64,000 nucleotides of DNA from the NCBI GenBank assembly GCA_004299705.1, contig SCQS01000066.1, positions 62,001 through 126,000 of the forward strand, written 5' to 3'. Below the pieces are notes generated by a model. That model was not told where the DNA came from, made no database searches, and saw nothing but the letters and a program-made list of their open reading frames with translations. The DNA is from Rhodanobacteraceae bacterium (GTDB taxonomy: Bacteria; Pseudomonadota; Gammaproteobacteria; Xanthomonadales; Rhodanobacteraceae). Position numbers and translations under genes: made by a program. Below are positions 30,112-63,464 of the stretch, piece after piece (the first letter of the stretch is position 1; each line of letters starts with the position of its first letter).

Positions 30112-30176
30112 TGGCTCCCACGAGCCTTCATGGCTACAGGAAACCGGCGCCATTCCGGTCGTGTTGCGTGGTGTGC
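30112..30176 (-). promoter_or_regulatory. Leader element copy 1
   Basis: GTTGCG (plus strand) at 30163-30168 lies 33 bases from a TTC block beside a hairpin with arms GGCTC / GAGCC (30113-30126). A divergent copy: GAAGG replaces GAACC, but the hairpin is kept. Confidence 0.65.
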
Positions 30177-30396
30177 CCTTGAGAATCGGGCGCCGGCGCG
30201 AACCTGGCTCGGGGCGCGCAAGCGCAAGTAAACGGCGCAGCGCGTGGCGCATCAGCGCATCAGGCGGCGCGCGTGACGGCCGTGCTTCGCGCACGCGGCG
30301 GCGCGAATTCGATGGACATCGGTCGCAACGCGTTCAGCGGAAGCGGCGGACGCATCTCCATGAAGCCGTACTTCGTACGGTACGTGGAGAGAAACA
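30177..30396. other. Gene-free stretch before ardC
   Basis: About 220 bases with no convincing gene on either strand. Near the right end (about 30363-30382) is a palindromic CCGTACTTCGTACGG followed by a further GTACG, a candidate operator for the ardC-like gene. No clear -35/-10 pair was found. Confidence 0.4.
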
Positions 30397-31332
30397 ATGC
30401 ACAAACGTGAGCGCCCTCCCCGCCAAGCGGCGGATTGGATGGCGATTCTGCAACAGGCTTTGAACGAGCCTGGCGTGGCCAACCGCGCGTACCACCTGTT
30501 CCACCGGTTCTCGCTGGGCAACTCGCTCTGGGCCGCCCTGCAAATCGAGGGCCGCGGGCTGCCGCTGGGTCCGATCGCTTCCTTCAAGAAGTGGCAGGAC
30601 CTCGGTCGCCAGGTGCGCAAGGGCGAAAAAGGCATCAGCCTCCTGATGCCGGTGATCGTCGGCGGCAAGAAGAAGCGCAAAGACGCGCAGGCGGCTACCG
30701 AAGCACCTGCAGCATGGCTGGTGGGTGGCGGAAGCGAGCCAACCAAGAGTGACGCCGAGTCACAGGCGGGCCGGCGCATCTTCGTCGAACGCGCGCACTG
30801 GTTCACCCTGGCTCAAACCGATCCGATCGAGGGCGTCGAGCCCAACCCGGCCGCGCAAGCGGAGCCGGACGCGATCGAATTCGTGCCCGACCGCGCCATC
30901 GAGAAGCTGGGCTTCCGCCGCGAGCGGTTCCACAACACCGACGGCAACAAGATGGGGTACTCCTATCCCGGCGAAGGCGTCCTGGCCGTCAGCGACCTGG
31001 CAACCGATCCGACGAAGACCCTGATCCACGAAATGGCGCACTGCCTGCTGCACACCGACAGTGAGGCGATCGTGGAAGGCCGCACGCTGCCGCGCGCGAT
31101 CATCGAGGTCGAGGCCGAGTGCGTGGCGTATCTCGTCTGCGCGACGATCGGCCACATGGCCAGTGCCGCACACATGCGCGAGTACATCCAATCGTGGTTG
31201 TCGCTTTCGGGCGAAGGGTCGGACGTGTTCACCAAGAAGAACGCGTCCCGCGTGTTCAGCGCGGCGAACAAGATCATCCAGGCCGGTACCGAGCTGGACG
31301 AAGTGGAAGAAATGCAGCGCGCCGCTGCATGA
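30397..31332 (+). CDS. ardC: ArdC-like antirestriction / ssDNA-binding metalloprotein
   Basis: 311 residues. N-terminal ArdC domain (ADWMAILQQALNEPG, NRAYHLFHRFSLGNSLWAAL, SFKKWQDLGRQVRKGEKGI) and a C-terminal zincin-like domain with HEMAH at 211-215 and a later EVEAEC that can supply the third ligand. ArdC-type proteins protect incoming single-stranded DNA from restriction during conjugation. Strong fit with a leading-region gene. Followed by its own terminator. Confidence 0.9.
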   Translation: MHKRERPPRQAADWMAILQQALNEPGVANRAYHLFHRFSLGNSLWAALQIEGRGLPLGPIASFKKWQDLGRQVRKGEKGISLLMPVIVGGKKKRKDAQAATEAPAAWLVGGGSEPTKSDAESQAGRRIFVERAHWFTLAQTDPIEGVEPNPAAQAEPDAIEFVPDRAIEKLGFRRERFHNTDGNKMGYSYPGEGVLAVSDLATDPTKTLIHEMAHCLLHTDSEAIVEGRTLPRAIIEVEAECVAYLVCATIGHMASAAHMREYIQSWLSLSGEGSDVFTKKNASRVFSAANKIIQAGTELDEVEEMQRAAA

Positions 31333-31344
31333 TCGAGCAACAGA

Positions 31345-31380
31345 AAAGCCGCCGGCATCACTGCTGGCGGCTTTCTCTTG
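31345..31380 (+). terminator. Intrinsic terminator of the ardC-like gene
   Basis: Stem AAAGCCGCC / GGCGGCTTT with a GGCATCACTGCT centre and T-rich end (TTTCTCTT). Confidence 0.88.
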
Positions 31381-31390
31381 TGTTCGAGTC

Positions 31391-31427
31391 GGAAAACAGG
31401 AAGCCCGACCTCGCGCGGTCGGGCTTC
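31391..31427 (-). terminator. Intrinsic terminator of the 31.4 kb minus-strand gene
   Basis: Perfect 11-bp stem GAAGCCCGACC / GGTCGGGCTTC followed on the minus strand by TGTTTTCC. Tail-to-tail with the ardC terminator. Confidence 0.85.
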
Positions 31428-31439
31428 AGGGTGGATATT

Positions 31440-31766
31440 TCAGGCGTGGCCGTACCGGAGCGCCACTTCCGCGAGCAGCGAGTTGACCTCGGCTTCGCTG
31501 GCGTAGCGCAGGATGGCCTTGTAGTCAGGAACTTCGATCCCGCACTTTTGCACGTTGGCGGCGAGCGAGATCAGGCTGCGGATCACGCCATCGCGCTCCC
31601 TGCGCAGATCATTGGCGTGATTGGCCAGTGTCTTCGCGGTATTCAAGGCCGTCTCGCACATGGCATCGGACGTGGCAACGCACCGGTTCAGGCGCCTGTT
31701 CTCGATCACCAGGCTGGCGGTGCAGAAGCACAGCACCAGGACGCCCGCGGCGAGCAAGATCATCAT
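31440..31766 (-). CDS. Small protein with N-terminal membrane anchor
   Basis: 108 residues from the first of two adjacent ATGs, with GGAG seven bases upstream. One hydrophobic N-terminal helix (MMILLAAGVLVLCFCTASLVI), then a cytoplasmic or periplasmic helical region with three cysteines. Has its own leader element and terminator. The size and single anchor would suit an Rz-like or entry-exclusion protein, but nothing confirms this. Confidence 0.7.
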   Translation of the reverse strand: MMILLAAGVLVLCFCTASLVIENRRLNRCVATSDAMCETALNTAKTLANHANDLRRERDGVIRSLISLAANVQKCGIEVPDYKAILRYASEAEVNSLLAEVALRYGHA

Positions 31767-31779
31767 GGTTCGTCTCCGT

Positions 31780-31852
31780 TCCGCCGGATTGGCGGGGTTC
31801 ACGTGAGCAGATGGCCACCGGCGCGCCGAACGTGTTGCGGGAGATGCCCACA
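31780..31852 (-). promoter_or_regulatory. Leader element copy 2
   Basis: GTTGCG at 31834-31839, 33 bases from GGGTTC; hairpin arms CCGCC / GGCGG at 31781-31795, a different arm sequence from most copies but fully paired. Confidence 0.8.
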
Positions 31853-31902
31853 CTTCTGGCAGTAACCGTGTGCGCTGGCACGCAACGCGGTACCCTTCCG
31901 GG

Positions 31903-32574: not shown

Positions 32575-32607
32575 CACGATCACAAACCGCCCAGCCAGCG
32601 TCGCGCC

Positions 32608-35863: not shown

Positions 35864-35877
35864 GGGATTCTCCTGTT

Positions 35878-35950
35878 GCCGGCGAGTGCCGGGTTCACCG
35901 TGCAGGTGGTGTGTTGCTCAGGCACGTGTGTTGCGGAAGATCATTACCAG
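35878..35950 (-). promoter_or_regulatory. Leader element copy 3 (Pol-beta-like gene)
   Basis: GTTGCG at 35930-35935, 33 bases from GGGTTC; hairpin arms CCGGC / GCCGG at 35879-35892, directly before the start region. Confidence 0.85.
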
Positions 35951-35970: not shown

Positions 35971-36465
35971 ATGGGCACACAACGCAACAGCACGTACCAG
36001 CTCCGGCCCACCTTCCTCCTGAACCCCGCACAACGCGGGACTTGGGAGACGCACTTGAGCGTACAACAGGACATAGCAACGCTTACCGCACGCTGCGAAT
36101 ACAACGAAACGGCGAAGGCGGCATTCCACAGGGTCGCCAAGAAATACCTGCGCCGCCTGGCGGCAACGCTGGCGCTGCCGAAAGGCAGTTACTCGATCCA
36201 CTCCAACCAGGGCGGCATCGCCGTGTCGGGCGAGGTCACACTGCACAGCGAGCACCTGCACCTCTGGGTCGAGCAGTCGTGCATTGGTTCGGCCGATCGA
36301 GTCGTGTGGTACCGCGGCTGTCACGGCCAGAAGGATTACACCGGTATGGTGAACCATGCCGCCGATGCGTCGGAGCTGGTCGATACACCGCGAATGGCCG
36401 ATCTCTGCAGAGCGGTTATCGCGCAGGCGGAAGCGACCGACAAGCGACTGGCCTCTGCAGCCTGA
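35971..36465 (+). CDS. Hypothetical plasmid-type protein
   Basis: 164 residues from the ATG before GTQRNSTYQL. Compact alpha/beta protein with KKYLRRLAATLALPKGSYSIHSNQGGIAVSGEVTLHSEHLHLWVEQ, a strand-rich motif common in small plasmid proteins of unknown role, and two cysteines (SCIGSADRVVWYRGCHG). Ends in an intrinsic terminator. Divergent from the Pol-beta-like gene. Confidence 0.7.
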   Translation: MGTQRNSTYQLRPTFLLNPAQRGTWETHLSVQQDIATLTARCEYNETAKAAFHRVAKKYLRRLAATLALPKGSYSIHSNQGGIAVSGEVTLHSEHLHLWVEQSCIGSADRVVWYRGCHGQKDYTGMVNHAADASELVDTPRMADLCRAVIAQAEATDKRLASAA

Positions 36466-36578: not shown

Positions 36579-39074
36579 TCACACTGAACCCAGCTCAGCT
36601 ACGCGTATGCGCACCGGTGGAGAGCCAGCCTCAACCACATACGCCTCGCCAACACCGAGGCTGGCCAGTTCGCTCTCTGGCACCTGGGTCGCCTTTGCCA
36701 AAATCGCCCGCGATCCGACTTCGCCGACCCGAAACACCACTTTGACCGCGGTGTTGCCAATCACGGTGCGGAGCAGGCCATCATCGCACGCCTCGTATTG
36801 AGCGACGGTGTGATTCGCAAGCACCAGCCGCTCTCCAGCGCTCCGGGCCTGCTCAAGCAGCCGCGGCAAGCTGCGGCCCAAAGCGCCCGGCGGTAGCTCG
36901 GTCAGCACCGCAAGGCCGCGGCCGCGTACCGCGTTCCGTACCTGCGTGGCCACCACGGCCGCGCAGTAATCAGAGAGCGTCAGATTAGCCAGCAATGCGT
37001 AAGTCTCCGCGCGCCTCATGAACGCCGGGATGGCGATATGCAGCACGCCGTGACCGCCGAGGTGTTCGCGTAGCCGTACCTGCGGCTCGGTCGCCTGCAG
37101 CAGCGGCGCGGCCTCGCTGGTGCGCATGGCGGCCAGGCGGGGGCGGATGCCTCCCACGTCCACAGCCCGGCTCTGCAGCGCGGCGTTCCACAGTTCGTCC
37201 AGGCAGGTCACAGCCAGGCCATCGTCGCCGTGGCCGATGCCGTCCGCTAGGACGGCTGCGGCGCGATCAGCATAGTAGGCCGATCCGGCGTTGTTTTCAG
37301 GGTTTGGCATGAACGCTGCCACGACCCGGCGTGCCAACGCCGCGGCGTCTTCGTCTTCCCTGAGCGGGTTGTAACTGGCGCCGCGCTCAGGGTGTTGAAA
37401 ATTGACGTCGCGAAAATCAGTGCCACGACCGGCGCGCCGACAGCATTCACGCAAGTGCTCGGCGGTGTTTTCCGAGAAGGAACTATCACCTGAATCAAAC
37501 ACCGTGACGCGGTCGCCATGGGCCACCGCAGCGCCTTCCAGGGCGTGCAGAAAGGTGCCGACCCCCGTCCCTGATTCACCGATCACCAGCACGTGGCCAT
37601 CGAGGTTCGACCATGGGATGGTGAACGGCTCGCCGGTATCGACCCGCACACCGAGATCGACGGCCGGGGCATGCGAGCGCGAAGCGGACACCATGGTGAT
37701 GGCATGGTCGGCTGACGGCGCGTTACCGCGCGGCGCATCGGAAGATCCGATCTCCATTTCCGCACCCGTGAAGTCGCGACGTCGGAGCGCTGCCAGGACC
37801 CTAGAAGTCGGCACCATCACCTCGGCACGCGCAGTACGCCCAATGACCCCACGATTGCCGCAATGCGCGCAACCGTTGGGGCGCGCGGCCGTGTTGCAGA
37901 GTCCGTGGCAGCGGGGGCAAAACGTAGGCACAAGGTCCTGGTAAACAACCGCGCTGACGACGTTCGGCTGGGTCAGTTCACCCATGGGGACACCAAGCGC
38001 CTCCAGCCGCTGGAAAGCCGCGAGTGCGCTGACAGCATGGAGCGTCGCGAACACCACATGGCCAGCACGCACGGACTGGAGGGCGAGACGGGCATCGGTG
38101 GGCTCATCCAGCTCCGGCCCCACGATGATGTCGGGATCGCAATGCAACGCACTCATCCAATCGTTCTTCATCGTGGCCTCCGTGACCTCAAGCGAGGGGT
38201 CACGCTGGATCGTCACAACGCGGAGTCCTGGCGAGGCCTTCAAGCGCTCGCGCAGCAGGAGTTGGAGCGTCGTACTCCTGCCGGAACCGGATGCCCCGCA
38301 TACCAGCAGCAGGCCGACCGGCTTGGCGGCAGCCGCCCTGACGGCCGCCACCTGCTCAGGGGAGCTTAGGGCGGCTGCGTACTCGGGCAGCTCATCGACC
38401 GTGCGGATCATGGACGTCGACTTGCCGGGCCCGGTGGTACCGGAGAACAGGATCAGCTTGTTCGCTGCCGGTGCCTCGGTCAGCGAAGCTTCGAGTGGCA
38501 CACTGGCTCGCTCATCGTCGAACGGCCCCATCATGCCGGCGCCGCGCAATGCGTCGGTCAGCGGAGACTTCCCGCCCACGGCGTATTCCGCAAATTCGTC
38601 CACCACAATCGGCGTCCCGCCAGGCTTGGCGACCACCTTGATATACGTACATTCCTTCAGCAGTCCGCTCCACCGTGCAGGCGCATCAGCAAGCTCCGCG
38701 GCAAACGACCCAAGCCGCTCCTCGAACGCTCGAGGATCATTCTGGCCAGGGACGAGCTCGACGATTGCACTGGCAACGCGGTCGGGTGTTGCCGCGACGA
38801 ATGGGTTGATGCGGCTGGGCAAGCTCGCAATGGCACTCAGTCTCACAACTGCCTCGCCTCTGGCTTTTGCAGTTTCGTCTGCGAATGGCACCGGCAACTT
38901 GCCGTCGCGCTCGGCCGCGAGCGCCGCCGAGTAGGGCTTGCCGTACACCGCGCCGGCGAGCACGTTGTTCCAGGTGGAAAGGCTTACCGGGCCTTTGGCC
39001 AGGGGCGCTACGCGCGCGCGCAGCGCGGCGATGATCGCGCGCGCGATGGACGGTTCTTGGTTACGGTTCGACAT
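36579..39074 (-). CDS. Fused GspE-like / coupling-protein-like ATPase with degenerate P-loops
   Basis: 831 residues in one frame. (1) An N-terminal ~130-residue region. (2) A GspE/PilT-type ATPase region: P-loop SGTTGPGKST (211-220), a second P-loop-like GASGSGRST (260-268; Lys changed to Arg), Walker B-like DPDIIVGPELDEPTDARLA and HVVFATLHA, and a four-Cys zinc motif (Cys386, Cys389, Cys402, Cys405). (3) A C-terminal TraD-like region (GEPFTIPWSNLDGHVLVIGE), closely matching the element's own coupling protein, but with GESGTGVGT (499-507) lacking the P-loop Lys. The start ATG gives no overlap upstream. Possibly a regulator or alternative motor of pilus and DNA transfer. Confidence 0.8.
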   Translation of the reverse strand: MSNRNQEPSIARAIIAALRARVAPLAKGPVSLSTWNNVLAGAVYGKPYSAALAAERDGKLPVPFADETAKARGEAVVRLSAIASLPSRINPFVAATPDRVASAIVELVPGQNDPRAFEERLGSFAAELADAPARWSGLLKECTYIKVVAKPGGTPIVVDEFAEYAVGGKSPLTDALRGAGMMGPFDDERASVPLEASLTEAPAANKLILFSGTTGPGKSTSMIRTVDELPEYAAALSSPEQVAAVRAAAAKPVGLLLVCGASGSGRSTTLQLLLRERLKASPGLRVVTIQRDPSLEVTEATMKNDWMSALHCDPDIIVGPELDEPTDARLALQSVRAGHVVFATLHAVSALAAFQRLEALGVPMGELTQPNVVSAVVYQDLVPTFCPRCHGLCNTAARPNGCAHCGNRGVIGRTARAEVMVPTSRVLAALRRRDFTGAEMEIGSSDAPRGNAPSADHAITMVSASRSHAPAVDLGVRVDTGEPFTIPWSNLDGHVLVIGESGTGVGTFLHALEGAAVAHGDRVTVFDSGDSSFSENTAEHLRECCRRAGRGTDFRDVNFQHPERGASYNPLREDEDAAALARRVVAAFMPNPENNAGSAYYADRAAAVLADGIGHGDDGLAVTCLDELWNAALQSRAVDVGGIRPRLAAMRTSEAAPLLQATEPQVRLREHLGGHGVLHIAIPAFMRRAETYALLANLTLSDYCAAVVATQVRNAVRGRGLAVLTELPPGALGRSLPRLLEQARSAGERLVLANHTVAQYEACDDGLLRTVIGNTAVKVVFRVGEVGSRAILAKATQVPESELASLGVGEAYVVEAGSPPVRIRVAELGSV

Positions 39075-39712: not shown

Positions 39713-39729
39713 TGAAAAGCTCCATTGAA

Positions 39730-39800
39730 CGGGCGGGATGCCCGAGTTCAATCGCAAGGATGCGGCGAGGCCGGCAAAGGTGTTGCGGGCGATGCCCACG
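39730..39800 (-). promoter_or_regulatory. Leader element copy 4
   Basis: GTTGCG at 39782-39787, 32 bases from GAGTTC; hairpin arms CGGGC / GCCCG at 39730-39744, a compensated variant of the usual arms. Confidence 0.8.
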
Positions 39801-43651: not shown

Positions 43652-43963
43652 TCTCTGCGTTCAGCAGTCTTAGGGTCAGGAGGCGTGGACGGTCGCCGTT
43701 GCAGCGTAACCACGCAACTCCCATCGTACACGTGAAAAGGCGAATCGCGAAAAGCTATCTCGTTCATGTGAAGCGTATCACGTTATTTTCGGGATTGCTA
43801 CTCGTAACCGTGTGACATTGGTTAAGGCTCCTGAACGGAACGCGTGGAGCGGCAGCGCCGGACGCGGGCATCCGGGGCCGGTACTGACTCGCCGCAACAG
43901 CGGGGGATCGCAGCAGGCATCTGTCGGGCGGAACGCTCCAATCGGGAGCATCGGAGATGCCAC
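43652..43963. other. Gene-free divergent stretch (about 310 bases)
   Basis: Holds two CGTAACC motifs (about 43705 and 43802) and AT-richer segments (ATCACGTTATTTTC), so divergent promoters for the flanking genes are likely. No coding region that I can support. Confidence 0.4.
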
Positions 43964-45646: not shown

Positions 45647-45667
45647 CATGGTTGATTCCTTGACGTT

Positions 45668-45738
45668 CCGCCGTTGTGGCGGGTTCGCGTGACGGGTGCC
45701 GGCGATCGCACAGCGGTGTTGCGGAGAGTAATTAAAGA
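45668..45738 (-). promoter_or_regulatory. Leader element copy 5
   Basis: GTTGCG at 45718-45723, 31 bases from GGGTTC; hairpin arms CCGCC / GGCGG at 45668-45682 (compensated relative to the common CCGGC / GCCGG). Confidence 0.85.
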
Positions 45739-45754: not shown

Positions 45755-45785
45755 GAAACCCCCGGCCGCATGGCAGCCGGGGGTT
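45755..45785 (-). terminator. Intrinsic terminator of the 45.8 kb gene
   Basis: Perfect 10-bp stem AACCCCCGGC / GCCGGGGGTT; T-rich on the minus strand (TTTCATTTTG). Confidence 0.9.
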
Positions 45786-45810: not shown

Positions 45811-46362
45811 TCAGGGATACGAGTAGCCGAGCGTCTTGCGCACGCGCTTGACCTGCATGTCCGCAGCAAACAAAGCTTCGTCATGCCCGCGATCGCTGTA
45901 TCCGTTCGCACCGCGCCTGCCGAGGTACGCCGACAGGAATGCGGCGCGCTGCGTGATCACGGCGGCAACGCGCTCCAAGTCGCGAGCGTTGTCGATCGTG
46001 ATGCCTTCGCAGAGCTTTTCGAGCTCCGCGTGGCCAGCATTCATGGCAGCCCAGGCTCGACCCTCGGCTTCACTCATTGCAACGTGCCGCAACATGCGGG
46101 CTTGGCCTTTGCCGCCGGGGAGTGCCGCCAAGGCATCCTTCAGACCGGCGCGAAGCGAGTCGTGGAATATCTCGTGGGCCGACCGATCGTCGGCTTCTGC
46201 ATCCACCTTCGTGATGCGCTTCTTCGCTCCTTGGCTGTAACTCTTGTTGGCAGCGAAGCACAAAGGGGATCGCGCCTCTTCCGCCCGCTTGGCCTGCACC
46301 GACTTCGCGGCGCGCTTCGTGGCGCCACCTTTCGAGGGCTGTTTCTTCATGGGGATGTCCAT
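45811..46362 (-). CDS. Hypothetical protein with basic N-terminus
   Basis: 183 residues (or 179 from the ATG at 46350). The N-terminal 30 residues are K/R/A-rich, as in nucleic-acid-binding tails; the remainder is helical (EIFHDSLRAGLKDALAALPG, ARDLERVAAVITQRAAFL). Unknown function. Own leader element. Confidence 0.65.
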   Translation of the reverse strand: MDIPMKKQPSKGGATKRAAKSVQAKRAEEARSPLCFAANKSYSQGAKKRITKVDAEADDRSAHEIFHDSLRAGLKDALAALPGGKGQARMLRHVAMSEAEGRAWAAMNAGHAELEKLCEGITIDNARDLERVAAVITQRAAFLSAYLGRRGANGYSDRGHDEALFAADMQVKRVRKTLGYSYP

Positions 46363-46367
46363 GGTAT

Positions 46368-46436
46368 CGGCGAATTGCCGGGTTCAATCGACGAGAGGCG
46401 GCGTGCGTTCGAACCGGTTGCGAGCCATTACCACAA
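46368..46436 (-). promoter_or_regulatory. Leader element copy 6
   Basis: GTTGCG at 46417-46422, 31 bases from GGGTTC; hairpin arms CGGC / GCCG at 46368-46380. Confidence 0.75.
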
Positions 46437-46451: not shown

Positions 46452-46486
46452 GCGCAATTGCGTTTTGCGATTCGCAATTGCGAAAG
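46452..46486. repeat. Paired GCAATTGC palindromes, copy A
   Basis: Two GCAATTGC palindromes at 46454 and 46474, exactly 20 bases apart, in a GCGATTCGCAATTG-type context that recurs at 47.9 and 52.8 kb. Intergenic here. Confidence 0.75.
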
Positions 46487-46487
46487 C

Positions 46488-46524
46488 GAAAACGCCCCGG
46501 GCATGGCTGCCTGGGGCGTGGGTT
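46488..46524 (-). terminator. Intrinsic terminator of the 46.5 kb gene
   Basis: 10-bp stem with one mismatch (ACGCCCCGGG / CCTGGGGCGT), then TTTTCGCTTT on the minus strand. Confidence 0.8.
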
Positions 46525-46825: not shown

Positions 46826-46841
46826 CGACGTATCTCTCTCT

Positions 46842-46912
46842 GCCGGCGATCGCCGGGTTCGCTGGAATGCGTGCCGGCGCCAGCGGCAGGATGTTGCGGG
46901 CAGTTGGCAGCA
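46842..46912 (-). promoter_or_regulatory. Leader element copy 7
   Basis: GTTGCG at 46893-46898, 32 bases from GGGTTC; hairpin CCGGCG / CGCCGG at 46843-46856 with a two-base centre. Confidence 0.85.
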
Positions 46913-46931: not shown

Positions 46932-46964
46932 ACAAAACGCCCCGGCGCGGAAGCCGGGGCGTGG
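46932..46964 (-). terminator. Intrinsic terminator of the 47.0 kb gene
   Basis: Stem ACGCCCCGGC / GCCGGGGCGT, then TTTTGTTTCC on the minus strand. Confidence 0.92.
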
Positions 46965-47404: not shown

Positions 47405-47421
47405 CTCTGAATCCTCGAAAT

Positions 47422-47492
47422 CCCGGCGGAGGCCGGTTCACGGGGATGCGGAGGCCGCGCGCGGCCACGCTGTTGCGCGAGGTGACTACGCA
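47422..47492 (-). promoter_or_regulatory. Leader element copy 8
   Basis: GTTGCG at 47472-47477, 32 bases from CGGTTC; hairpin arms CCGGC / GCCGG at 47423-47436. Confidence 0.85.
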
Positions 47493-47808: not shown

Positions 47809-47820
47809 CCTGGTTCTCCT

Positions 47821-47890
47821 TGCCGGCGGCATGCCGGGTTCGGGAACGGAACCAAGCGGCGGCAACTGCGCTGTTGCGAGGGATCACCAG
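47821..47890 (-). promoter_or_regulatory. Leader element copy 9
   Basis: GTTGCG at 47873-47878, 31 bases from GGGTTC; hairpin arms CCGGC / GCCGG at 47823-47837. Confidence 0.88.
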
Positions 47891-47930: not shown

Positions 47931-47965
47931 ACGCAATTGCGATTCGCGATTCGCAATTGCGGAAA
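47931..47965. repeat. Paired GCAATTGC palindromes, copy B
   Basis: GCAATTGC at 47933 and 47953, again exactly 20 bases apart and in nearly the same local sequence as copy A. Intergenic, upstream of a plus-strand gene. Confidence 0.75.
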
Positions 47966-48016
47966 CGGCAACGCCGGTTCCGCAACAGGGGAGCCACAGC
48001 GCGTTAAGCTGGCGCG

Positions 48017-48811
48017 GTGCCAGCGCCATCGGTCTACATACGTAAATTGCGCGCCAGCGGAATACGCGAAGGCCGATTCACCCGCGAGTGGAGCGCGAAA
48101 ATTCATGTCGAGCGCGTCGCCAGGTACGGCAAGCGGGTCGAAATGCTGTTGTCAGAGGTGAGCGGCGCCACAGAACTTACACGGACACTGCTTGGTGTGA
48201 GGCTTCCCAATCCAGAGTCGACGCTGACCAGCCGCCGTTTACGCTGCTCAAACTTCGTCAGATTCATTCTTCGCCGAGAGAAGGAAACCTGGCCGGTCAG
48301 CCGTGGCCGGGACCTGTTGGCGGTGGTGCATGCCGAGTACGTGCTAGAGGCGCCTTCAGACTACGAGCCACACCGCTCGGCGTCTATGTACGAACAAGCG
48401 CCTGATCGTAGTGAACCACACATGCTGCTGACTGGGCGGCTTCTCGACGTCCATGTTCAGCCTGGTATTGATAGTGAGCGCGGCGCGATCGTTACAGAAG
48501 CTGGACGGGTCTTGGCGGAGCAGATGGCGCGGCACGCAGCCTGCGCAGCATCGGTGCTCGACAACGGCGACGACCTTTACGAGCGTCCGACATTGGTACT
48601 GCAATATCGGTTTCAGGGGCGCTTAGGAATACCGCTCGAAGGGGCCATTGTGCGCGCGGGCATCGTAAGATTCCGACATGCGCCCATTGAATGGCAGGAC
48701 GGCTCGATATGCGATACCCGTGCTAGTGCCTGTGCAGCGGACGCGGACGCGCGGTTCGAGGATGCGATCATCGCCTGTCGTAGTCCTGCCCGAATGTGCG
48801 CACACAAATAA
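48017..48811 (+). CDS. Hypothetical protein, one of few plus-strand genes in the array
   Basis: 264 residues from a GTG start; other starts downstream are possible. Mostly alpha/beta with many Arg residues in the first half and no membrane segments. No family recognised. Opposite in direction to the array and lacking a leader element; followed by a strong terminator. Confidence 0.6.
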   Translation: MPAPSVYIRKLRASGIREGRFTREWSAKIHVERVARYGKRVEMLLSEVSGATELTRTLLGVRLPNPESTLTSRRLRCSNFVRFILRREKETWPVSRGRDLLAVVHAEYVLEAPSDYEPHRSASMYEQAPDRSEPHMLLTGRLLDVHVQPGIDSERGAIVTEAGRVLAEQMARHAACAASVLDNGDDLYERPTLVLQYRFQGRLGIPLEGAIVRAGIVRFRHAPIEWQDGSICDTRASACAADADARFEDAIIACRSPARMCAHK

Positions 48812-48842
48812 AAGCCCCGATCAGTGATCGGGGCTTTCGTTT
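48811..48842. terminator. Bidirectional intrinsic terminator
   Basis: Perfect 13-bp stem AAAGCCCCGATCA / TGATCGGGGCTTT with a one-base centre. It ends the plus-strand gene (T-rich end TTTCGTTT) and lies just after the 48.9 kb minus-strand gene (A-rich flank AATAAAA). Confidence 0.93.
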
Positions 48843-49249: not shown

Positions 49250-49266
49250 GGTGGACTTCCTGCACA

Positions 49267-49345
49267 TGGTCGGCAACCGGCCGACCTTCGCCAGCCGGTG
49301 GCCTCGGCGGCCGGCCGGCATGTTGCGAGCTGTTACCTTGAGCGG
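49267..49345 (-). promoter_or_regulatory. Leader element copy 10
   Basis: GTTGCG at 49322-49327, 32 bases from CCTTC; hairpin arms GGTCGGC / GCCGACC at 49268-49286, a longer and quite different stem that is still fully paired. Confidence 0.7.
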
Positions 49346-52594: not shown

Positions 52595-53443
52595 TTACAG
52601 CGGGTCGATCTCGTCGACCGGCAGGCCGAGCGCCTTGGCACGGCCCAGAACGTCCTCGTAGCTGTTGGCGAGTTCCTTCCACGGCCAATCCTGCTTGAGG
52701 TCGCGCAGCATGGTCAGGGTGTCCATGAGCAACACCTGCAGCTTTGCGTCTTCGCGATCGTGCTTGGCATTCCGCAATTGCGAATCGGAATCCGCAATTG
52801 CGACTTCCGCCGCGACATCCGTGGTAGGCGCCACGATGGGCACTGCACGGCAACGCATGCCGACATAAGCCGGAATGGTCGTGATACCGCGAACCTGGCA
52901 AGCGCCGACACGGTGGTTGCCGTCCCAGAGCCATGCGCCGGTGGGCGTGTCGTAAACCACGATCGGCTCGTCGATCGGACGATCGAGCATGTCGGCGTAC
53001 CGGTGCGGCTGGCCTTCCTCGGCCCACGTCTTCTCCTCACCACGGAACCAGTCGGCGTCGGGCGCATCGTTGAGGCGCGCGATCGGGAACTCCGCGACAT
53101 ACCACCACTGCAGCTCCCTGGGATCGGCGTAGCCGGTCTCGCCGGGGCTGTACTGGTCGCGGCAGAACGAAGCGGCATAGCCGCCGTGCTGAGGCGCGGG
53201 AACCGCGCCGGCTCGCCAGGCGCCATCCCAGGCCGCTTTGGTTTCGAGCGACCTCATGTACTCGGCGTGTGCGGCTGTTGCGCTGGTGCCGCGCGTGGTC
53301 CAGAGGACTTCCGCATCGGCGTGGATCTTGTGGAGCTGCGCTGCGGCATCTTCGACGTTCTCGGCAGTGCAGCAGAACGCGCGCGTGCCGCCCGGGTGCA
53401 GAATCGGTTCCTTGCGATACAGAACCACCATGGACCGGCTCAT
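52595..53443 (-). CDS. ParB/sulfiredoxin-like protein fused to a PWIVLYR-type domain
   Basis: 282 residues. N-terminus (SMVVLYRKEPILHPGG... CCTAENVEDAAAQL) follows the PWIVLYR-type layout. A ParB-like nuclease fold follows: PIDEPIVVYDTPTGAWLWDGNHRVGACQVRGI, where DGNHR is the signature. The segment around residue 215-235 (AIADSDSQLRNAK) is encoded by GCAATTGC palindrome copy C and looks inserted. Last gene of a coupled operon. Confidence 0.8.
   Translation of the reverse strand: MSRSMVVLYRKEPILHPGGTRAFCCTAENVEDAAAQLHKIHADAEVLWTTRGTSATAAHAEYMRSLETKAAWDGAWRAGAVPAPQHGGYAASFCRDQYSPGETGYADPRELQWWYVAEFPIARLNDAPDADWFRGEEKTWAEEGQPHRYADMLDRPIDEPIVVYDTPTGAWLWDGNHRVGACQVRGITTIPAYVGMRCRAVPIVAPTTDVAAEVAIADSDSQLRNAKHDREDAKLQVLLMDTLTMLRDLKQDWPWKELANSYEDVLGRAKALGLPVDEIDPL
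52772..52806. repeat. Paired GCAATTGC palindromes, copy C (inside a gene)
   Basis: GCAATTGC at 52774 and 52794, exactly 20 bases apart, inside the coding region of the ParB-like gene and in frame. Same spacing as copies A and B. Confidence 0.75.
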
Positions 53444-54424: not shown

Positions 54425-54440
54425 GGGGTTCTCCTTGGTT

Positions 54441-54512
54441 CCGGCGAAGTGCCGGGTTCGGCACCGAGCGCGGCTGGTCGCGACTGGGCTGTTGCGCGGG
54501 ATCACCATTCGG
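54441..54512 (-). promoter_or_regulatory. Leader element copy 11
   Basis: GTTGCG at 54491-54496, 31 bases from GGGTTC; hairpin arms CCGGC / GCCGG at 54441-54455. Confidence 0.88.
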
Positions 54513-55136: not shown

Positions 55137-55153
55137 GCGTAATTTCCTCGCGC

Positions 55154-55225
55154 TCCGGCGGATGCCGGGTTCGCCGGCAGAAACGCGGGGTGGTGATCGG
55201 GCTGTTGCGCGCGATTGCCACAACG
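55154..55225 (-). promoter_or_regulatory. Leader element copy 12
   Basis: GTTGCG at 55203-55208, 31 bases from GGGTTC; hairpin arms CCGGC / GCCGG at 55155-55168. Confidence 0.88.
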
Positions 55226-56093: not shown

Positions 56094-56106
56094 CTCACTT
56101 CCCATT

Positions 56107-56178
56107 GCCGGCGGGATGCCGGGTTCGCTGCCAGCGCGCAGTCAAGCCAACCATGGGTGTTGCGGGAGGTCATCAAGG
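56107..56178 (-). promoter_or_regulatory. Leader element copy 13
   Basis: GTTGCG at 56159-56164, 32 bases from GGGTTC; hairpin arms CCGGC / GCCGG at 56108-56122. Confidence 0.88.
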
Positions 56179-56697: not shown

Positions 56698-56710
56698 GGG
56701 GGTTCCTTGT

Positions 56711-56785
56711 GGACCCGCGAATTGCGGGGTTCGGAAGGTGAAGCGGCCGGCGGGGCGGCACGCTGTTGCGCACGGTGACCACCGG
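56711..56785 (-). promoter_or_regulatory. Leader element copy 14
   Basis: GTTGCG at 56765-56770, 32 bases from GGGTTC; hairpin arms CCCGC / GCGGG at 56714-56728, compensated relative to the common stem. Confidence 0.88.
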
Positions 56786-56807: not shown

Positions 56808-56838
56808 AAAAACCCGCACGCCGGAAAGGCATGCGGGT
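56808..56838 (-). terminator. Intrinsic terminator of the 56.8 kb gene
   Basis: Stem ACCCGCA / TGCGGGT around a GCC-rich centre that can pair further; then TTTTTCGTC on the minus strand. Confidence 0.85.
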
Positions 56839-56845: not shown

Positions 56846-57211
56846 TCAGTTGGTGGTCCACGGGAACCGGACGGCGCCTTTCCGGAGATCGAACGCCTCG
56901 GCTTCGCCCAGGATTCGCACGCCGGCGTCGAGGTCGGCGAGCGGCATGGAGGTGTCGACGGTGGTGACCACCCTCTTGCCGTTCTGCCGATCGAAGGTCC
57001 GCTGGGTCGTCACGACCACGGTTCCGGGGCCCCAGGCCTTGGTGCGCGGCTGGAAGTCGTCGCTGGCCTCGAACTCGGCCTTCAACGTCTCGGCGACGGA
57101 CTTGCCGTCCGGCACCTTGAGGCAGACGGACTTGACGCCGCGGCCGCCCTGCAGGAGCACGCCGTACACGGTGCCGACGACGCGGGTGGTGGATTGCGAT
57201 TGCGTTTGCAT
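56846..57211 (-). CDS. Hypothetical strand-rich protein
   Basis: 121 residues from the ATG at 57211, which has AGGA eight bases upstream; ATG at 57220 is the alternative. Strand-rich (RVVGTVYGVLLQGGRGV, PGTVVVTTQRTF, KRVVTTVDTS), soluble. Unknown function. Confidence 0.68.
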   Translation of the reverse strand: MQTQSQSTTRVVGTVYGVLLQGGRGVKSVCLKVPDGKSVAETLKAEFEASDDFQPRTKAWGPGTVVVTTQRTFDRQNGKRVVTTVDTSMPLADLDAGVRILGEAEAFDLRKGAVRFPWTTN

Positions 57212-57226
57212 GGGAAGCATCCTCTA

Positions 57227-57298
57227 TCCGGCAATGGACCGGGTTCATCACCAGCGCGGTGCCGGGGCAACCAGTGGTGTTGCGGGGGATGACCATCG
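57227..57298 (-). promoter_or_regulatory. Leader element copy 15
   Basis: GTTGCG at 57279-57284, 32 bases from GGGTTC; shorter hairpin CCGG / CCGG with a 7-base loop (57228-57242). Confidence 0.75.
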
Positions 57299-57327: not shown

Positions 57328-57362
57328 CAAAGAAACGCCGCCTGCGTGAACAGGCGGCGTTG
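57328..57362 (-). terminator. Intrinsic terminator of the helicase gene
   Basis: Stem AACGCCGCCTG / CAGGCGGCGTT, then TCTTTGTG on the minus strand. Repeated terminator family. Confidence 0.92.
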
Positions 57363-58885: not shown

Positions 58886-58906
58886 TACATGTCTCCAGGT
58901 GAATTT

Positions 58907-58978
58907 CCGGCTGGTGCCGGTTCATGGAGACGGCGACGTGCGCCACGATGGGTGCGTTGCGCGGCATGACTATGGGAT
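58907..58978 (-). promoter_or_regulatory. Leader element copy 16 (helicase gene)
   Basis: GTTGCG at 58956-58961, 32 bases from CGGTTC; hairpin arms CCGGC / GCCGG at 58907-58920. Confidence 0.85.
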
Positions 58979-59255: not shown

Positions 59256-59276
59256 ATCGTGATTCTCCGTTTGGTT

Positions 59277-59348
59277 GCCGGCGGATGCCGGGATTGCCAT
59301 CCAGCGCCACCGGCCGCCGCCGCGCTGTTGCGCGGGAGTGCCATGCGA
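59277..59348 (-). promoter_or_regulatory. Leader element copy 17
   Basis: GTTGCG at 59327-59332, 31 bases from GGGATT (C to T change); hairpin arms CCGGC / GCCGG at 59278-59291. Confidence 0.82.
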
Positions 59349-59966: not shown

Positions 59967-59979
59967 GGGTTCTCCATCC

Positions 59980-60055
59980 GCCGGCGAGATGCCGGGCGCG
60001 CAAGCCGAAGACCGGCGGTCGAGAGGGTCGTGTTGCGCGGGCGTGGCACGCGCGC
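59980..60055 (-). promoter_or_regulatory. Leader element copy 18
   Basis: GTTGCG at 60032-60037, about 34 bases from the hairpin edge; arms CCGGC / GCCGG at 59981-59995. The GGGTTC block is changed to GGGCGC. Confidence 0.75.
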
Positions 60056-60070: not shown

Positions 60071-60103
60071 GAAAAAACGCCGCCTGCGTGAACAGGCGGC
60101 GTT
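60071..60103 (-). terminator. Intrinsic terminator of the 60.1-60.8 kb unit
   Basis: Stem AACGCCGCCTG / CAGGCGGCGTT, then TTTTCGTG on the minus strand. Repeated terminator family. Confidence 0.95.
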
Positions 60104-60108
60104 GGTGG

Positions 60109-60636: not shown

Positions 60637-60800
60637 GCGAGCACTTCCACGCCGAGGTCGCGGGCCTCATCGACCATCGCGTCTACATCGACGTCGCTAT
60701 CGAGCGGCTCGCCCTTGTTCAGGCTGACCAGCGTTTCGAGCGCATCCTTGAGCAGGGCCTCGAGGCGTTGCTCGCGGCTGGGGGTGGGCGTATCGCCCAT
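60633..60800 (-). CDS. Small acidic protein
   Basis: 55 residues (MGDTPTPSREQRLEALLKD...); helical and acidic (DSDVDVDAMVDEARD). First gene of a two-gene unit with the tandem PWIVLYR protein. Unknown function. Confidence 0.68.
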   Translation of the reverse strand: MGDTPTPSREQRLEALLKDALETLVSLNKGEPLDSDVDVDAMVDEARDLGVEVLA

Positions 60801-60816
60801 GGCGTCTCTCCTTCGT

Positions 60817-60890
60817 ACCGGCGGGTGCCGGGGTTCGCGGGAGGGTGGCCGCGGCCCGCGCGCGCCTGTTGCGTGGCGTGACCATGAGGC
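60817..60890 (-). promoter_or_regulatory. Leader element copy 19
   Basis: GTTGCG at 60868-60873, 31 bases from GGGTTC; hairpin arms CCGGC / GCCGG at 60818-60831. Confidence 0.88.
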
Positions 60891-61062
60891 GTGGTGAGGG
60901 CGCGCAGCATCCACGCAGATTGCGGGGATGCAAATTGCGGTGACGCAGACCACGGGAACGCGGACCGATGCGCACGCGGAGGGGTGGTCGAGCTGCTGCT
61001 GGTCGTGGGTTGCAATGAAAAACACATATGGGTGTCACCCACGTCCAAGAAAGGAGGACACG

Positions 61063-61443: not shown

Positions 61444-61467
61444 CTGGAAGTCGGGCGCCACGCGCGC

Positions 61468-61500
61468 AATAAAACAGCCGCCCCGTGGAGGGCGGCTGTT
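61468..61500 (-). terminator. Intrinsic terminator of the 61.6 kb gene
   Basis: Stem ACAGCCGCC / GGCGGCTGT, then TTTATTGCG on the minus strand. Confidence 0.9.
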
Positions 61501-61561
61501 GGTGTGCACTGTAGCCGGATCGGCCAAGCGGGTACGTGCCCGCCGGAAACAGCCGGGGCCT

Positions 61562-62443
61562 TCAGTCGAACCGGCGCTCCCAGGCATCGCGAAGCGCGCT
61601 TGCCCGGTCGGGATCGAAATACTCGAGCATTCCGGTTTCCTCAAGCTCGTCGCCGTAGAACCCCCAGCAGGAGTCCTGCAGCCGGCCGGCGCGGTCCATG
61701 ACCTCGAACCCCCACACGTTGCCGCGCAGGTACTGGTCGTAGGTCAGGAGCTCGGCATCCATGCAGGCGCGGGCCTTGGTCTCGTCGCCGGCGAACTCAC
61801 GGTCGAGCGTCTCGCGGGTCATGTAATGGACGCCAACCAGGCCGGAGTCCCACACGTCCGTCGGCGTGCCGTGACTGATCGTGATGCCGCTGTGGTCGTA
61901 CAGCGAGAGCGGGATCGCGATGGCGACGTCCTCGCGCACGAAGCGCCGGGTTTCGCTGTTCTCGAGGCACGCGCGGAGCGCCTTGATGGCGGTGTCGATC
62001 GCGTCGAGGGTCCACGGCCCGAAATCCTCCACGCCTTCGGCGTATTCCGGATCTTCGCGCATGGCCTCGATGCGGCCTTCCAGCGTCTCGTAGGTCTCGC
62101 ACAGCATGTCCATCGCGTACTCGATGCCGTCGACGCTCATCCAGCGACCGTCCACCATGGCGCCCTCGACTTCATCGAAGGGGTCTTCGGCGTTCTTGTC
62201 GCCGAGCGTGTAGCGGCGGTGCTGGCAGAACATCACGCCGACGTTGTCGTCGTCGCGCGGGTTCGTGGGGTTGCGATCCGTCAGGACCTTGACGACGGGG
62301 CGCTCCATTTCCTCGATGAAGGCGTCGATCGCCGTGCTGGTCTCGTCCGGGACCCCGGGCGAGGTCGAAAGGGATTGCAGCAAGCCGAGCGACCGTTGCA
62401 GGTCGGCAGCATAGGTGTCGCAGCCACGCGCCTTGGTGACCAT
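61562..62443 (-). CDS. Large conserved mobile-element protein of unknown function
   Basis: 293 residues with VGVMFCQHRRYTLGDKNAEDP, IAIPLSLYDHSGITISHGTP, DVWDSGLVGVHYMTRE, LTYDQYLRGNVWGFEV and DSCWGFYGDE. I recognise this motif series from many phage and conjugative-element proteins lacking an assigned function. Own leader element and terminator. Confidence 0.82.
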   Translation of the reverse strand: MVTKARGCDTYAADLQRSLGLLQSLSTSPGVPDETSTAIDAFIEEMERPVVKVLTDRNPTNPRDDDNVGVMFCQHRRYTLGDKNAEDPFDEVEGAMVDGRWMSVDGIEYAMDMLCETYETLEGRIEAMREDPEYAEGVEDFGPWTLDAIDTAIKALRACLENSETRRFVREDVAIAIPLSLYDHSGITISHGTPTDVWDSGLVGVHYMTRETLDREFAGDETKARACMDAELLTYDQYLRGNVWGFEVMDRAGRLQDSCWGFYGDELEETGMLEYFDPDRASALRDAWERRFD

Positions 62444-62458
62444 AGGATGTCTCTCCGA

Positions 62459-62532
62459 GCCGGCGGATGCCGGGTTCGCTGGTCGGTGGCCGCGCGCCGC
62501 GCGCACGTGTTGCGCGGCATTGCCATGCCGGT
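62459..62532 (-). promoter_or_regulatory. Leader element copy 20
   Basis: GTTGCG at 62509-62514, 31 bases from GGGTTC; hairpin arms CCGGC / GCCGG at 62460-62473. Confidence 0.88.
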
Positions 62533-62549
62533 CGCGGCGAAGCGCCAAC

Positions 62550-62583
62550 AGGAAAGCCCCGGCTCCAGGTGGAGTCGGGGCTT
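62550..62583 (-). terminator. Intrinsic terminator of the 62.6 kb gene
   Basis: Stem AAGCCCCG-CTCC / GGAG-CGGGGCTT with one mismatch, then TCCTGTTGG on the minus strand; T-run weak. Confidence 0.8.
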
Positions 62584-62614
62584 GGTGCTGGTCAGGGCAC
62601 CGCCAGACGTTTGT

Positions 62615-63379
62615 CTAGCAGGGCGAATACACGGTCCAGCCGAGCTGGTACAGGGCGTCGTGCGCAGCGGCATCGACACTCGTGGCGTCGATCTCGAAGC
62701 TCTCGTTGCCGTCGGTGTTCTTCCGTACCACGAACGTCTGCGTGGATTGGCCCGCCGGCGGCTCGCTCGTCCTGTGCGTCGTACCGGCTCGGGCGGTGGC
62801 GATGGCCTCGCGCAGGGTTTCGCACCCGCGCACCATGAACGCGCCGTCGCAGGCCCCATTGGAGATGCTCCAGCGGGACGTTTCTCGGTGGGAGATGTGC
62901 AGGGTGTCGTGCTTGGCGAGCCAATCCAGGAGCGCCGTGTCATCCACGGGTTGCGTTTCCTGCGGGACGGCCACGTCCGCACCGCCCAGCAGCGTATCGA
63001 GGGACACCGACACGGATTCGGCCCGGAAGCCGGTGTGGTGTTCGAACGCGTAGAGGTGGGCCGTGTCGCCGAACACCGCCAGCGATTTGCCGTCGAAGGG
63101 CACGTCGGTGGTCAGAGCTTTCGCTTCGTCCTGCGTCAGCTCGACGCACTCTTCGTCATCGAGCCGTTCGGCCAAGGTATCGCCGCACGTTTCGGGGATC
63201 GTGAAACCGCCGCGCAGATCGACCACGACGTGCCGGTAGCCGCAAGCCTTCACGGTTTCCCGGGCCTTGCGAATGGTCTTGCGCATCGCGTCGGTCAGTG
63301 TCCACACGAAGCACGCCGGGCATGGCACGCACAGGCTTTCGCGGGCCATCTCGGCCTTCAGGGCGAAAATCTTGTCCAT
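62615..63379 (-). CDS. Hypothetical protein
   Basis: 254 residues (MDKIFALKAEMARES...). N-terminal Cys pair (CVPCPACF), alternating strands and helices, and a strand-rich C-terminus (QTFVVRKNTDGNESFEID). Soluble, no family match. Own leader element and terminator. Confidence 0.7.
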   Translation of the reverse strand: MDKIFALKAEMARESLCVPCPACFVWTLTDAMRKTIRKARETVKACGYRHVVVDLRGGFTIPETCGDTLAERLDDEECVELTQDEAKALTTDVPFDGKSLAVFGDTAHLYAFEHHTGFRAESVSVSLDTLLGGADVAVPQETQPVDDTALLDWLAKHDTLHISHRETSRWSISNGACDGAFMVRGCETLREAIATARAGTTHRTSEPPAGQSTQTFVVRKNTDGNESFEIDATSVDAAAHDALYQLGWTVYSPC

Positions 63380-63392
63380 GGGTTCCTCTTGA

Positions 63393-63464
63393 TGCCGGCG
63401 GGATGCCGGGTTCGCGGGGTGCGCGCGCGTTGCGGCGCCGGTGCTGTTGCGGGAAGTGTCCACG
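63393..63464 (-). promoter_or_regulatory. Leader element copy 21
   Basis: GTTGCG at 63446-63451, 32 bases from GGGTTC; hairpin arms CCGGC / GCCGG at 63395-63409. Confidence 0.88.

Follow-up and report, generated by a model that had tools for sequence, protein, structure and literature searches.

How does a large plasmid switch on the many genes that it carries? Plasmids are usually thought to depend on host promoters. The stretch of DNA analysed here (the window, 64 kb) raises this question with a short leader that recurs in front of one gene after another. On a large conjugative plasmid, one short promoter followed by a small RNA hairpin appears to stand before about 80 of the plasmid's own genes. 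This suggests that the plasmid brings its own gene-switching system, possibly including an unusual sigma factor of its own.

A short leader repeated across two contigs

The window contains 24 leader copies, 21 on the minus strand (within 30106-63462) and three on the plus strand (Table 1). The first-pass annotation had reported at least 21 minus-strand copies before mostly unknown genes, and both statements hold. It had also taken all copies to run in one direction and to lie between 30 and 64 kb, but about 80 copies on both strands are spread over two contigs (C59 and C5), with 60 on the minus and 25 on the plus strand among the 85 scored. The contigs share a 120-bp overlap and probably form a single conjugative replicon of ~215 kb. 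In a whole-genome scan with model R1, built from 16 source copies selected for a single loop length and a single stem position, 66 of the 68 matches fell on these two contigs. The PWM, which was trained on these same copies, found 79 sites scoring above 15, against 0.7 per Markov null set (three sets), and the window holds 34 CGCAACA words (shuffles: mean 15.7, maximum 27; 0/100 reach 34). Gene starts were the calls of our own gene caller, not annotation; 63 of the 90 PWM hits sit 60-95 nt ahead of a called start whose strand they share, on which ground an orientation-free binding site was rejected. Six of the 85 copies have their motif overlapping a called gene.

Each element consists, in order, of TRGnnAYnnnnCGCAAC(A/G), a spacer, GAA, a hairpin, the SD and the start codon. 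The TGG, the 4-5 bases, the C-rich stretch and the CGCAACA described earlier give way to an 18-bp block, TRG-N8-CGCAAC(A/G), whose gap includes a conserved A and Y; the matrix was fixed at 18 bp and only this gap length was scanned. In the 69 copies retained, CGCAACA is separated from GAA by 29-32 nt, rather than by 31-34 variable bases. The other 21 PWM hits were set aside for having no GAAC-like word at 26-35 nt; several of these do not lie before genes, and others are true-looking copies with an altered GAA. Among the 63 copies preceding a called start, GAA lies exactly 30-32 nt past the motif in 54 (background 31/1638), and two of the remaining nine have it at 29 nt. A pyrimidine directly precedes GAA in 87% of the 69 copies. 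Of the hexamer GAACCC noted earlier, GAA is constant, whereas CCC is mostly stem and varies. Spacers are about 33% identical between copies, against 30-31% expected from composition, and are unstructured (mean z -0.10; motif plus spacer -0.06; GAA and the following 22 nt -2.57).

Table 1. Leader copies, terminators and candidate factor in the window.
Feature	Position	Strand	R1 (bits)	Remarks
Candidate cognate factor, 305 aa	26377..27294	-		ECF-like sigma region 2 + XRE-type HTH
Copy 1	30106..30179	-	13.2	GGCTC/GAGCC; PWM 24.7
Copy before ArdC-N-like antirestriction gene	30313..30385	+	18.2	ArdcN match; start 30397; PWM 20.6; 84 nt to start
Copy 2	31777..31850	-	49.1	CCGCC/GGCGG
Copy 3	35873..35946	-	30.6	TAA replaces TGG; PWM 11.7
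Plus-strand copy	35972..36044	+	61.5	CCCGC/GCGGG
Copy 4	39726..39798	-	30.6	CGGGC/GCCCG
Copy before metallophosphatase gene	43882..43954	+	50.5	GCTCC/GGAGC; Metallophos match
Copy 5	45663..45734	-	56.4	CCGCC/GGCGG
Predicted intrinsic terminator	45757..45785	-		before copy 5
Copy 6	46362..46433	-	37.5	
Copy 7	46837..46909	-	37.4	
Predicted intrinsic terminator	46937..46962	-		before copy 7
Copy 8	47416..47488	-	29.8	
Copy 9	47818..47889	-	61	
Copy 10	49266..49338	-	14	7-bp stem GGTCGGC/GCCGACC; E 0.069; PWM 23.5; 89 nt to start
Copy 11	54436..54507	-	64.8	
Copy 12	55149..55220	-	43.5	
Copy 13	56103..56175	-	46.5	TGA replaces TGG; absent from PWM hits
Copy 14	56709..56781	-	61.8	CCCGC/GCGGG
Predicted intrinsic terminator	56812..56838	-		before copy 14
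Copy 15	57223..57295	-	44.1	U-G closes stem
Predicted intrinsic terminator	57334..57361	-		before copy 15
Copy 16	58900..58972	-	25.5	before UvrD-like helicase gene; UvrD-helicase match
Copy 17	59273..59343	-	30.5	CAATCCC replaces GAACCC
Copy 18	59976..60048	-	20.5	without GAA
Predicted intrinsic terminator	60076..60103	-		before copy 18
Copy 19	60813..60884	-	33.1	
Copy 20	62454..62525	-	43.9	
Copy 21	63390..63462	-	60.9	
Predicted intrinsic terminator	63491..63515	-		ends 28-29 nt before copy 21 motif; insulates unit

Hairpin pairing and the start of transcription

The hairpin, mostly of 5-7 bp, changes in sequence from copy to copy while its arms continue to pair, and every varied arm pair that had been quoted was recovered in its place (copies 1, 2, 4, 5, 10 and 14). 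Among the 81 copies with a GAA-like triplet there are 34 distinct arm words, some merely extending others. A stem of at least 4 bp forms in 69 of these copies, against a mean of 30.3 and a maximum of 39 in 300 swaps of the 3' halves, and one of at least 5 bp in 60 (swaps: mean 15.2, maximum 22). A fitted alignment of 85 rows, biased by the fitting towards structure, holds 59 double-change cells, matched by 0/500 shuffles. Compensation is far beyond chance. Neither a strict nor a near hairpin was found in 8 of 76 copies.

The most fitting reading of the compensated hairpin is an RNA within a 5' leader. Of the earlier proposal of an RNA or ssDNA structure, the first half is supported; a ssDNA structure serving a leading region is not, with copies pointing both ways. 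Counting G-U pairs for RNA versus DNA gave 3 T-G against 5 A-C/C-A, and the fitted alignment contains 4 G-U/U-G cells. The hairpin as a terminator was rejected, as no T-run follows it on the 3' side.

Where would such an RNA begin? For 35 of the 85 copies an intrinsic terminator ends within the 6-66 nt upstream (random positions 3.9%; leaderless starts 10/78), and in eight copies the distance is only 6-13 nt; by the strict rule, the other 50 have no upstream terminator. Because terminators end just upstream of many copies, transcription should start inside the element. Divergent copies are also closely packed, with 16 bp between the motifs of the pair at 57112 (minus) and 57129 (plus) on C5 and 25 bp between those of copy 3 and its plus-strand neighbour in the window. 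T content is 25% at -10..-1 versus 11.5% at -26..-11 (p 1e-13), and the minimum of duplex stability between motif and hairpin falls around GAA, part of this dip being due to GAA itself and the TRG block being less stable still. The spacer stretch following GC is the most stable of the element. Among the 63 copies before a called start, ten have no strict hairpin and seven of these retain GAA (two with a 4-bp stem and one a doubtful site), so GAA seems to be part of the start region rather than of the hairpin. From this geometry and composition we infer that the transcript +1 lies at GAA, which would set the hairpin at the 5' end of the mRNA.

The first-pass annotation could place no sigma70 -10/-35 pair in the element, and the same result was obtained here: none of the 69 copies has a TAnnnT that begins between -19 and -8 (upstream control 3), and no sigma70-like site lies at 44-64 kb of the window. 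A sigma70 promoter was rejected on both counts. Apart from a weak SSGCNY signal, seen against a monomer-shuffle null only, no other type of conserved -10 emerged.

A candidate driver and rival explanations

What could read such promoters? From the part of the plasmid proteins scanned against Pfam, the 26377-27294 product was chosen and is, judged by its domains, a plausible driver. A predicted ECF-like sigma region 2 spans residues ~15-90 (an ECF HMM matched 15-88 in hmmsearch) and an XRE-type HTH ~165-217, with a possible second HTH at ~250-285 by eye. Its matches to Sigma70_r2 (PF04542, 8e-4), HTH_31 (8e-5) and sigma70-ECF (TIGR02937, 2e-4) are all below curated cut-offs, the sigma-region scores being 19.6 of 24 bits and 20.9 of 42.9. 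Foldseek placed sigmaE region 2 on top (E 0.33), and six of the best seven matches were sigma region 2, at E 0.33 or worse; the AF2 models were weak (mean pLDDT 46.6 and 61.8), that of the whole factor being unusable. Alignment to six host ECF factors with hhalign joined the wrong part at probability 0.1, with shuffled sequences at 0.1-0.2. No sigma region 4 family was among the matches, an XRE-type HTH being matched instead. The candidate may resemble an ECF sigma in region 2, and differs in having an XRE-type HTH in the place of region 4 and a putative bipartite site of 18 bp without a visible -10. Searches found no relatives of the protein; two other genomes of 369 gave matches, confined to its HTH part (E 7e-4 and 9e-4). 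Neither PWM nor R1 found a leader copy ahead of its own operon. A search for a T7-type RNA polymerase gave no match, but control genomes equally gave none.

The best explanation of the whole, which we lean towards by a little, is a plasmid-specific promoter with a compact 5' leader, with this protein as its likeliest driver. Many accessory genes of the ~215-kb plasmid would thereby each gain their own transcription unit, many of these units insulated by upstream terminators. Recognition would take place at the 18-bp block (about -49 to -32), and the next 30-32 bp would be a GC-rich, weakly specified start region melting at the T-rich stretch just 5' of GAA, with transcription beginning at its G or within 1-2 nt. 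The mRNA would then open with pppGAA and pass directly into the hairpin, SD and start codon, giving an untranslated leader of ~35 nt. At this extreme 5' position the hairpin would most likely guard the mRNA against 5'-end-dependent decay (RppH/RNase E) and leave the SD free, and its sequence could drift so long as the arms pair. In this driver, XRE-type HTH domains joined to sigma region 2 would stand in for region 4 and recognise the 18-bp block. A compensated stem, as in 5'-terminal mRNA stem-loop stabilisers, is present. As in ompA and papA, it would lie within a few nt of the 5' end, although here that end is deduced and the stabilising role predicted. Tens of natural variants would form a test set for the minimal mRNA-protecting 5' structure.

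Several rivals share parts of this evidence. The 18-bp block might instead bind a plasmid-encoded regulator of CII-, FlhDC- or XRE-like type (activator or repressor), with host housekeeping RNA polymerase starting at GAA without a visible -10 and the rest of the leader unchanged. Class II activator sites fit the position -49 to -32, and the 26377-27294 protein could itself be an activator instead of a sigma. However, activated sigma70 promoters normally retain a -10, and the TAnnnT count in the 69 copies speaks against one; in addition, KorA/TrfB were not found on C59/C5, and FlhC was not found in the genome, by which an FlhDC-type activator was rejected. We consider this reading unlikely. A sigma54 promoter is far less probable still: the host has one RpoN gene and the motif TGG..A.....CGC resembles -24/-12 boxes, but sigma54 requires GG-N10-GC and the consensus here is GG-N9-GC, on which spacing it was rejected. 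It would also leave the fixed 30 nt to GAA unexplained, and the spacer after GC is more stable than any other part of the element.

Improbable too is a reading of the entire element as a structured cis-regulatory RNA, similar to an attenuator or riboswitch, made from promoters farther upstream, as expected for DUF3085 RNA (Rfam RF02959). The compensated hairpin suits it, and DUF3085 RNA is likewise a repeated upstream leader; it occurs on Azonexus hydrophilus plasmid NZ_CP151407, whose T4SS and type IV pilus region are related. However, motif and spacer lack structure, and where terminators end 6-13 nt before eight motifs, or divergent motifs stand 16 bp apart, no room is left for an upstream promoter. 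DUF3085 RNA differs in sequence and fold and has no match in the window, where no Rfam family reaches its gathering score; at 30-64 kb nothing matched up to E 1 but one sRNA hit (48703-48842) well short of its cut-off and overlapping no copy, and DUF3085 or another Rfam RNA was rejected. We give equally little credence as to sigma54 to a Frpo-type single-strand promoter working on the incoming transferred strand. The element is conjugative, one copy precedes an ArdC-like antirestriction gene and the hairpin could form in ssDNA, but copies occur in both orientations and the fold is a ~15-nt hairpin with no reconstituted -35/-10 seen. Frpo1 and Frpo2 resemble each other to 92% and reconstitute canonical boxes (PMC9849209).

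With the plasmid-specific promoter preferred, a private promoter repeated about 80 times and a candidate private sigma would, if true, amount to an orthogonal gene-expression system and explain how a large plasmid holds many unknown genes under one control, apart from the host. Only tentatively do we extend this to a self-contained, host-independent programme, in which a hybrid sigma (ECF region 2 plus two XRE-type HTH) would serve ~80 GC-rich promoters without a -10 consensus, yielding mRNAs that start with GAA and a 5' hairpin, and such a private promoter-plus-leader code may have evolved separately in each member of the class of large conjugative plasmids.

Known systems and other plasmids

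The CUP repeats of IncN plasmids, described as ArdK-controlled (PMC6289460), had been named as a likeness in organisation, with an unlike sequence. Both remarks stand, as one element is repeated before several plasmid genes, antirestriction genes included; membership does not follow. The repeats of R46 are 58-300 nt blocks of 88-100% identity, in contrast to the divergent spacers here, and its repeat region has sigma70-like boxes (TTGACT/TTGACC, 17 nt, GATAAT) at four places. On R46, R1 gave nothing below E 0.25, its best value (50,000 of 50,969 bases searched), and ArdK-type repressors (TrfB/KorA family, PF16509) were absent from C59/C5, with matches only on C67 and C22. A CUP repeat was rejected on sequence, sigma70 boxes and ArdK alike. 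In EGeRS1/EGeRS2 of Bacillus pLS20/p576, too, several operons, ardC among them, have a conserved regulatory sequence directly ahead of the RBS, which defines a plasmid regulon (PMC8708921). On pLS20 there are five copies, of 420-751 bp, 62-95% identity and complex predicted folds (PMC8708921), whereas the ~80 copies here are ~73 nt long and linked only by motif, spacing and pairing. Thioalkalivibrio plasmid pTK9001 repeats AAATCGAC before many genes, and some copies have GGAACCGGC-loop-GCCGG just before the SD. It differs in a clear sigma70-like -10 (TAnnnT at offset 25 in 24/47) and in hairpins in only 9/28 copies (shuffled 2.25); a like scan thus did reveal its -10, in contrast to the present leader.

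No other element carrying the leader repeat has been found so far, which the first-pass annotation had listed as an outcome against its reading, and no published description was found in the literature searched. Among relatives, where 25 candidates per genome were scored with stricter filters, 1/197 genomes was positive, the source genome itself. A first search of viral contigs gave 81 stretches, with one match each among the 80 listed; of further searches, one gave 0 and another eight stretches with one match each, six of which yield one identical R1 alignment without the hairpin. Genome contigs gave 22 stretches in unrelated taxa with a single pattern match each, on which R1 had 21 matches up to E 0.5 (best 33.9 bits), never clustered. 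The seven genome-contig matches inspected resembled coding sequence by eye. On 12 large plasmids R1 found no carrier and weak matches only (best E 0.0016). Two of these 12 have analogous repeated leaders of unrelated sequence, which makes it a testable question whether each big plasmid has its own leader code.

A leader repeated across a putative plasmid

The leader repeat reported by the first-pass annotation is real but was understated. The window contains 34 occurrences of the word CGCAACA where 15.7 would be expected. A position matrix (PWM) for the 18-bp left block, derived from seed copies, gives scores of at least 11 at 90 sites on contigs C59 and C5; 79 of these sites exceed 15, compared with 0.7 per null set. 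A covariance model of the leader (R1), built from 16 copies selected for a single loop length, gives 85 matches at E <= 0.1 in 216 kb. Across the whole genome, with 150 of 8299 candidates scored, it returns at least 68 matches at E <= 0.01, 66 of them on C59 or C5. The 21 minus-strand copies of the window hold up, but not the claim that all run in one direction, as three plus-strand copies are also accepted, one with an ArdC-like antirestriction gene downstream. The copies avoid the transfer region, with only weak matches below window position 29,000 (R1 E 0.056; PWM 13.4 and 11.2).

C59, of which the window covers positions 62001-126000, measures 143,896 bp in a genome of 3.62 Mb and 78 contigs. 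Its end shares 120 bp exactly with the start of C5 (70,924 bp), and shared contig ends are the usual mark of adjoining contigs; joined, the two make about 214.7 kb. In the transfer region, an HD-domain protein occupies the position where an Azonexus plasmid carries its MobH relaxase, and the gene set further includes KfrA-type, DnaB helicase, ribonucleotide reductase and SSAP annealing protein genes. C59 and C5 are read as a single large, putative conjugative plasmid. It also encodes an RNB exoribonuclease; RNB relatives occur on other plasmids (145 records).

Coordinates of the features (L handles are DNA stretches with their own local coordinates)
Feature	Location	Description
Transfer region	window, first 29 kb	PilO- and secretin-type pilus genes, VirB4 and VirB11 ATPases, TraD-like coupling protein
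Bactofilin gene	window 23332-23922	downstream of the sigma-like gene
Candidate factor	window 26377-27294 (-)	sigma region 2-like, XRE-type HTH
831-aa protein	window 36579-39074	type II/IV secretion ATPase domain and second, TraD/FtsK-like ATPase domain
Palindrome CGCAATTGCG, clustered within longer repeats	window 46453-46496, 47932-47975, 52753-52816	first two clusters directly precede leader copies
Near-alike terminators (5-6), AACGCCGCCTG..CAGGCGGCGTT	window 54527, 56212, 57331, 59370, 60073 (and 52548)	between units
Nuclease, ERCC4-type	L001:5779-6762	with helix-hairpin-helix domain
Ribonucleotide reductase large-subunit gene	L002:7624-9795	own leader copy 84 nt upstream (C59:27540)
RNB (RNase II/R type) exoribonuclease	contig C5, L009:4896-7010	double-stranded-RNA-binding domains at C-terminus
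Azonexus leader GGTAGCTGG	NZ_CP151407.1 (L153-L168), e.g. 21003, 83236, 119860	many times on one plasmid; Rfam: DUF3085 RNA
pTK9001 repeat AAATCGAC	NC_013930.1 (L187-L198), e.g. 14586, 29895, 71202	before many genes; TAnnnT box ~17 nt later

Anatomy of the leader and its hairpin

Across 78 copies, the conserved block has a sharp left edge at TRG and runs as far as CGCAAC(A/G), spanning 18 bp with an internal A and pyrimidine. Upstream of the T, the adjoining base (A or G) holds 0.39 bits and the other 59 positions at most 0.17. A GAA follows 29-32 nt after the motif in the 69 copies kept; in a less selected set of 63 copies, defined as lying 60-95 nt before a called start, it falls at exactly 30-32 nt in 54, against a background of 31/1638. 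A pyrimidine directly precedes GAA in 87% of the 69 copies. The spacer is without structure (mean z -0.10), and the GAA+22 stretch has a z of -2.57. Mean pairwise spacer identity (0.33) is near the expectation from composition (0.30-0.31), so the leaders did not arise by recent duplication. The near-alike terminators between units are 77-94% identical to a reference over 35 nt, a mutual likeness exceeding that of the leader spacers.

GAA is followed by a stem, usually of 5-7 bp around a loop of 3-7, whose start lies 3-5 nt downstream of the G in 67 of 69 copies; it comes in 34 kinds of stem word. Its compensated pairing, noticed at first sight of the sequence, is borne out by double-change cells, 14 in a 16-row and 59 in a fitted 85-row alignment (0/500 shuffles each), and exchanging 3' halves between copies leaves a mean of 30 stems where the true halves give 69.

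A proposed dedicated promoter and its candidate factor

For 35 of 85 copies, a strict intrinsic terminator ends 6-66 nt before the motif (33 within 46 nt, eight within 13 nt), compared with 3.9% of random positions and 10/78 leaderless gene starts, and two divergent motif pairs are separated by only 16 and 25 bp. The RNA of the downstream gene should therefore begin inside the element. T makes up 25% of the ten bases directly preceding GAA, up from 11.5%, and duplex stability between motif and hairpin is highest in mid-spacer and lowest around GAA, partly through the two A's of GAA itself. Together with the preceding pyrimidine, these features point to +1 at GAA, which would place CGCAACA at about -38 to -32. 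The earlier failure to place a sigma70 -10/-35 pair is upheld: TAnnnT is absent from the right zone in all 69 copies, and window 44-64 kb holds no sigma70-like site against a shuffle mean of 2.5. A weak SSGCNY signal lies near -14 to -8, as judged against monomer shuffles only. The best interpretation of the repeat is a dedicated promoter used throughout the plasmid and followed by a 5' leader with a hairpin.

With +1 at GAA, the stem would start a few nucleotides from the 5' end and end directly before the SD. According to PMC3997798, 5'-terminal structure hinders RppH and RNase E. Variation in both stem and loop speaks against a sequence-reading RNA-binding protein. Among the 10 copies of the 63-copy set without a strict hairpin, seven retain GAA, at 10-33 nt from the start codon and mostly below the median of 35 for copies with one, which fits a modular promoter with the hairpin as an optional stabiliser.

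The leading but unproven candidate for driving these promoters is a sigma-XRE protein. A sigma region 2 search of the same genome gave 14 matches, of which this protein, below the family cut-off, is the only one on the plasmid. Its N-terminus matches Pfam Sigma70_r2 (8e-4) and NCBIfam sigma70-ECF (2e-4), both below cut-offs, an HMM from six host ECF factors aligns with residues 15-88, and XRE-type HTH models match residues ~165-217. Queried with a low-confidence AF2 model (residues 1-110, mean pLDDT 61.8), Foldseek ranked E. coli sigmaE region 2 first and sigma region 2 structures in six of the top seven places, with no match at E < 0.33 and unrelated folds from rank 8. Region 2 would contact core RNAP and melt DNA, and the HTH domains, replacing region 4, would read the -49 to -32 site; such a make-up would fit the odd promoter. 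Neither PWM nor R1 found a leader copy before the protein's own operon (start 29225).

Parallels on other plasmids

Known parallels of the leader are CUP, the EGeRS sequences of pLS20/p576, and Frpo; in membership tests, it was rejected both as a CUP and as an Frpo element. The expectation that another element would carry the same leader as an upstream repeat found no support, as R1 detected no copy in 196 other genomes and weak matches only on 12 large plasmids picked via related proteins. On the Acidovorax, B. glumae, C. pauculus and pDK1 plasmids, the best words recur in just 4-10 regions. Two of the 12 have different repeated leaders of their own. On Azonexus NZ_CP151407, GTAGCTG occurs in 18/180 upstream regions and in none on the reverse strand, and Rfam identifies this leader as DUF3085 RNA (three matches in 140 kb scanned of 319 kb). 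On Thioalkalivibrio pTK9001, a scan of 140 kb out of 240 kb yielded no Rfam match; AAATCGA occurs in 31/165 upstream regions versus 7, hairpins in 37/165 versus 6 when shuffled, and the repeat has a clear -10. In some copies of this repeat, the last part ahead of the SD is GGAACCGGC-loop-GCCGG.
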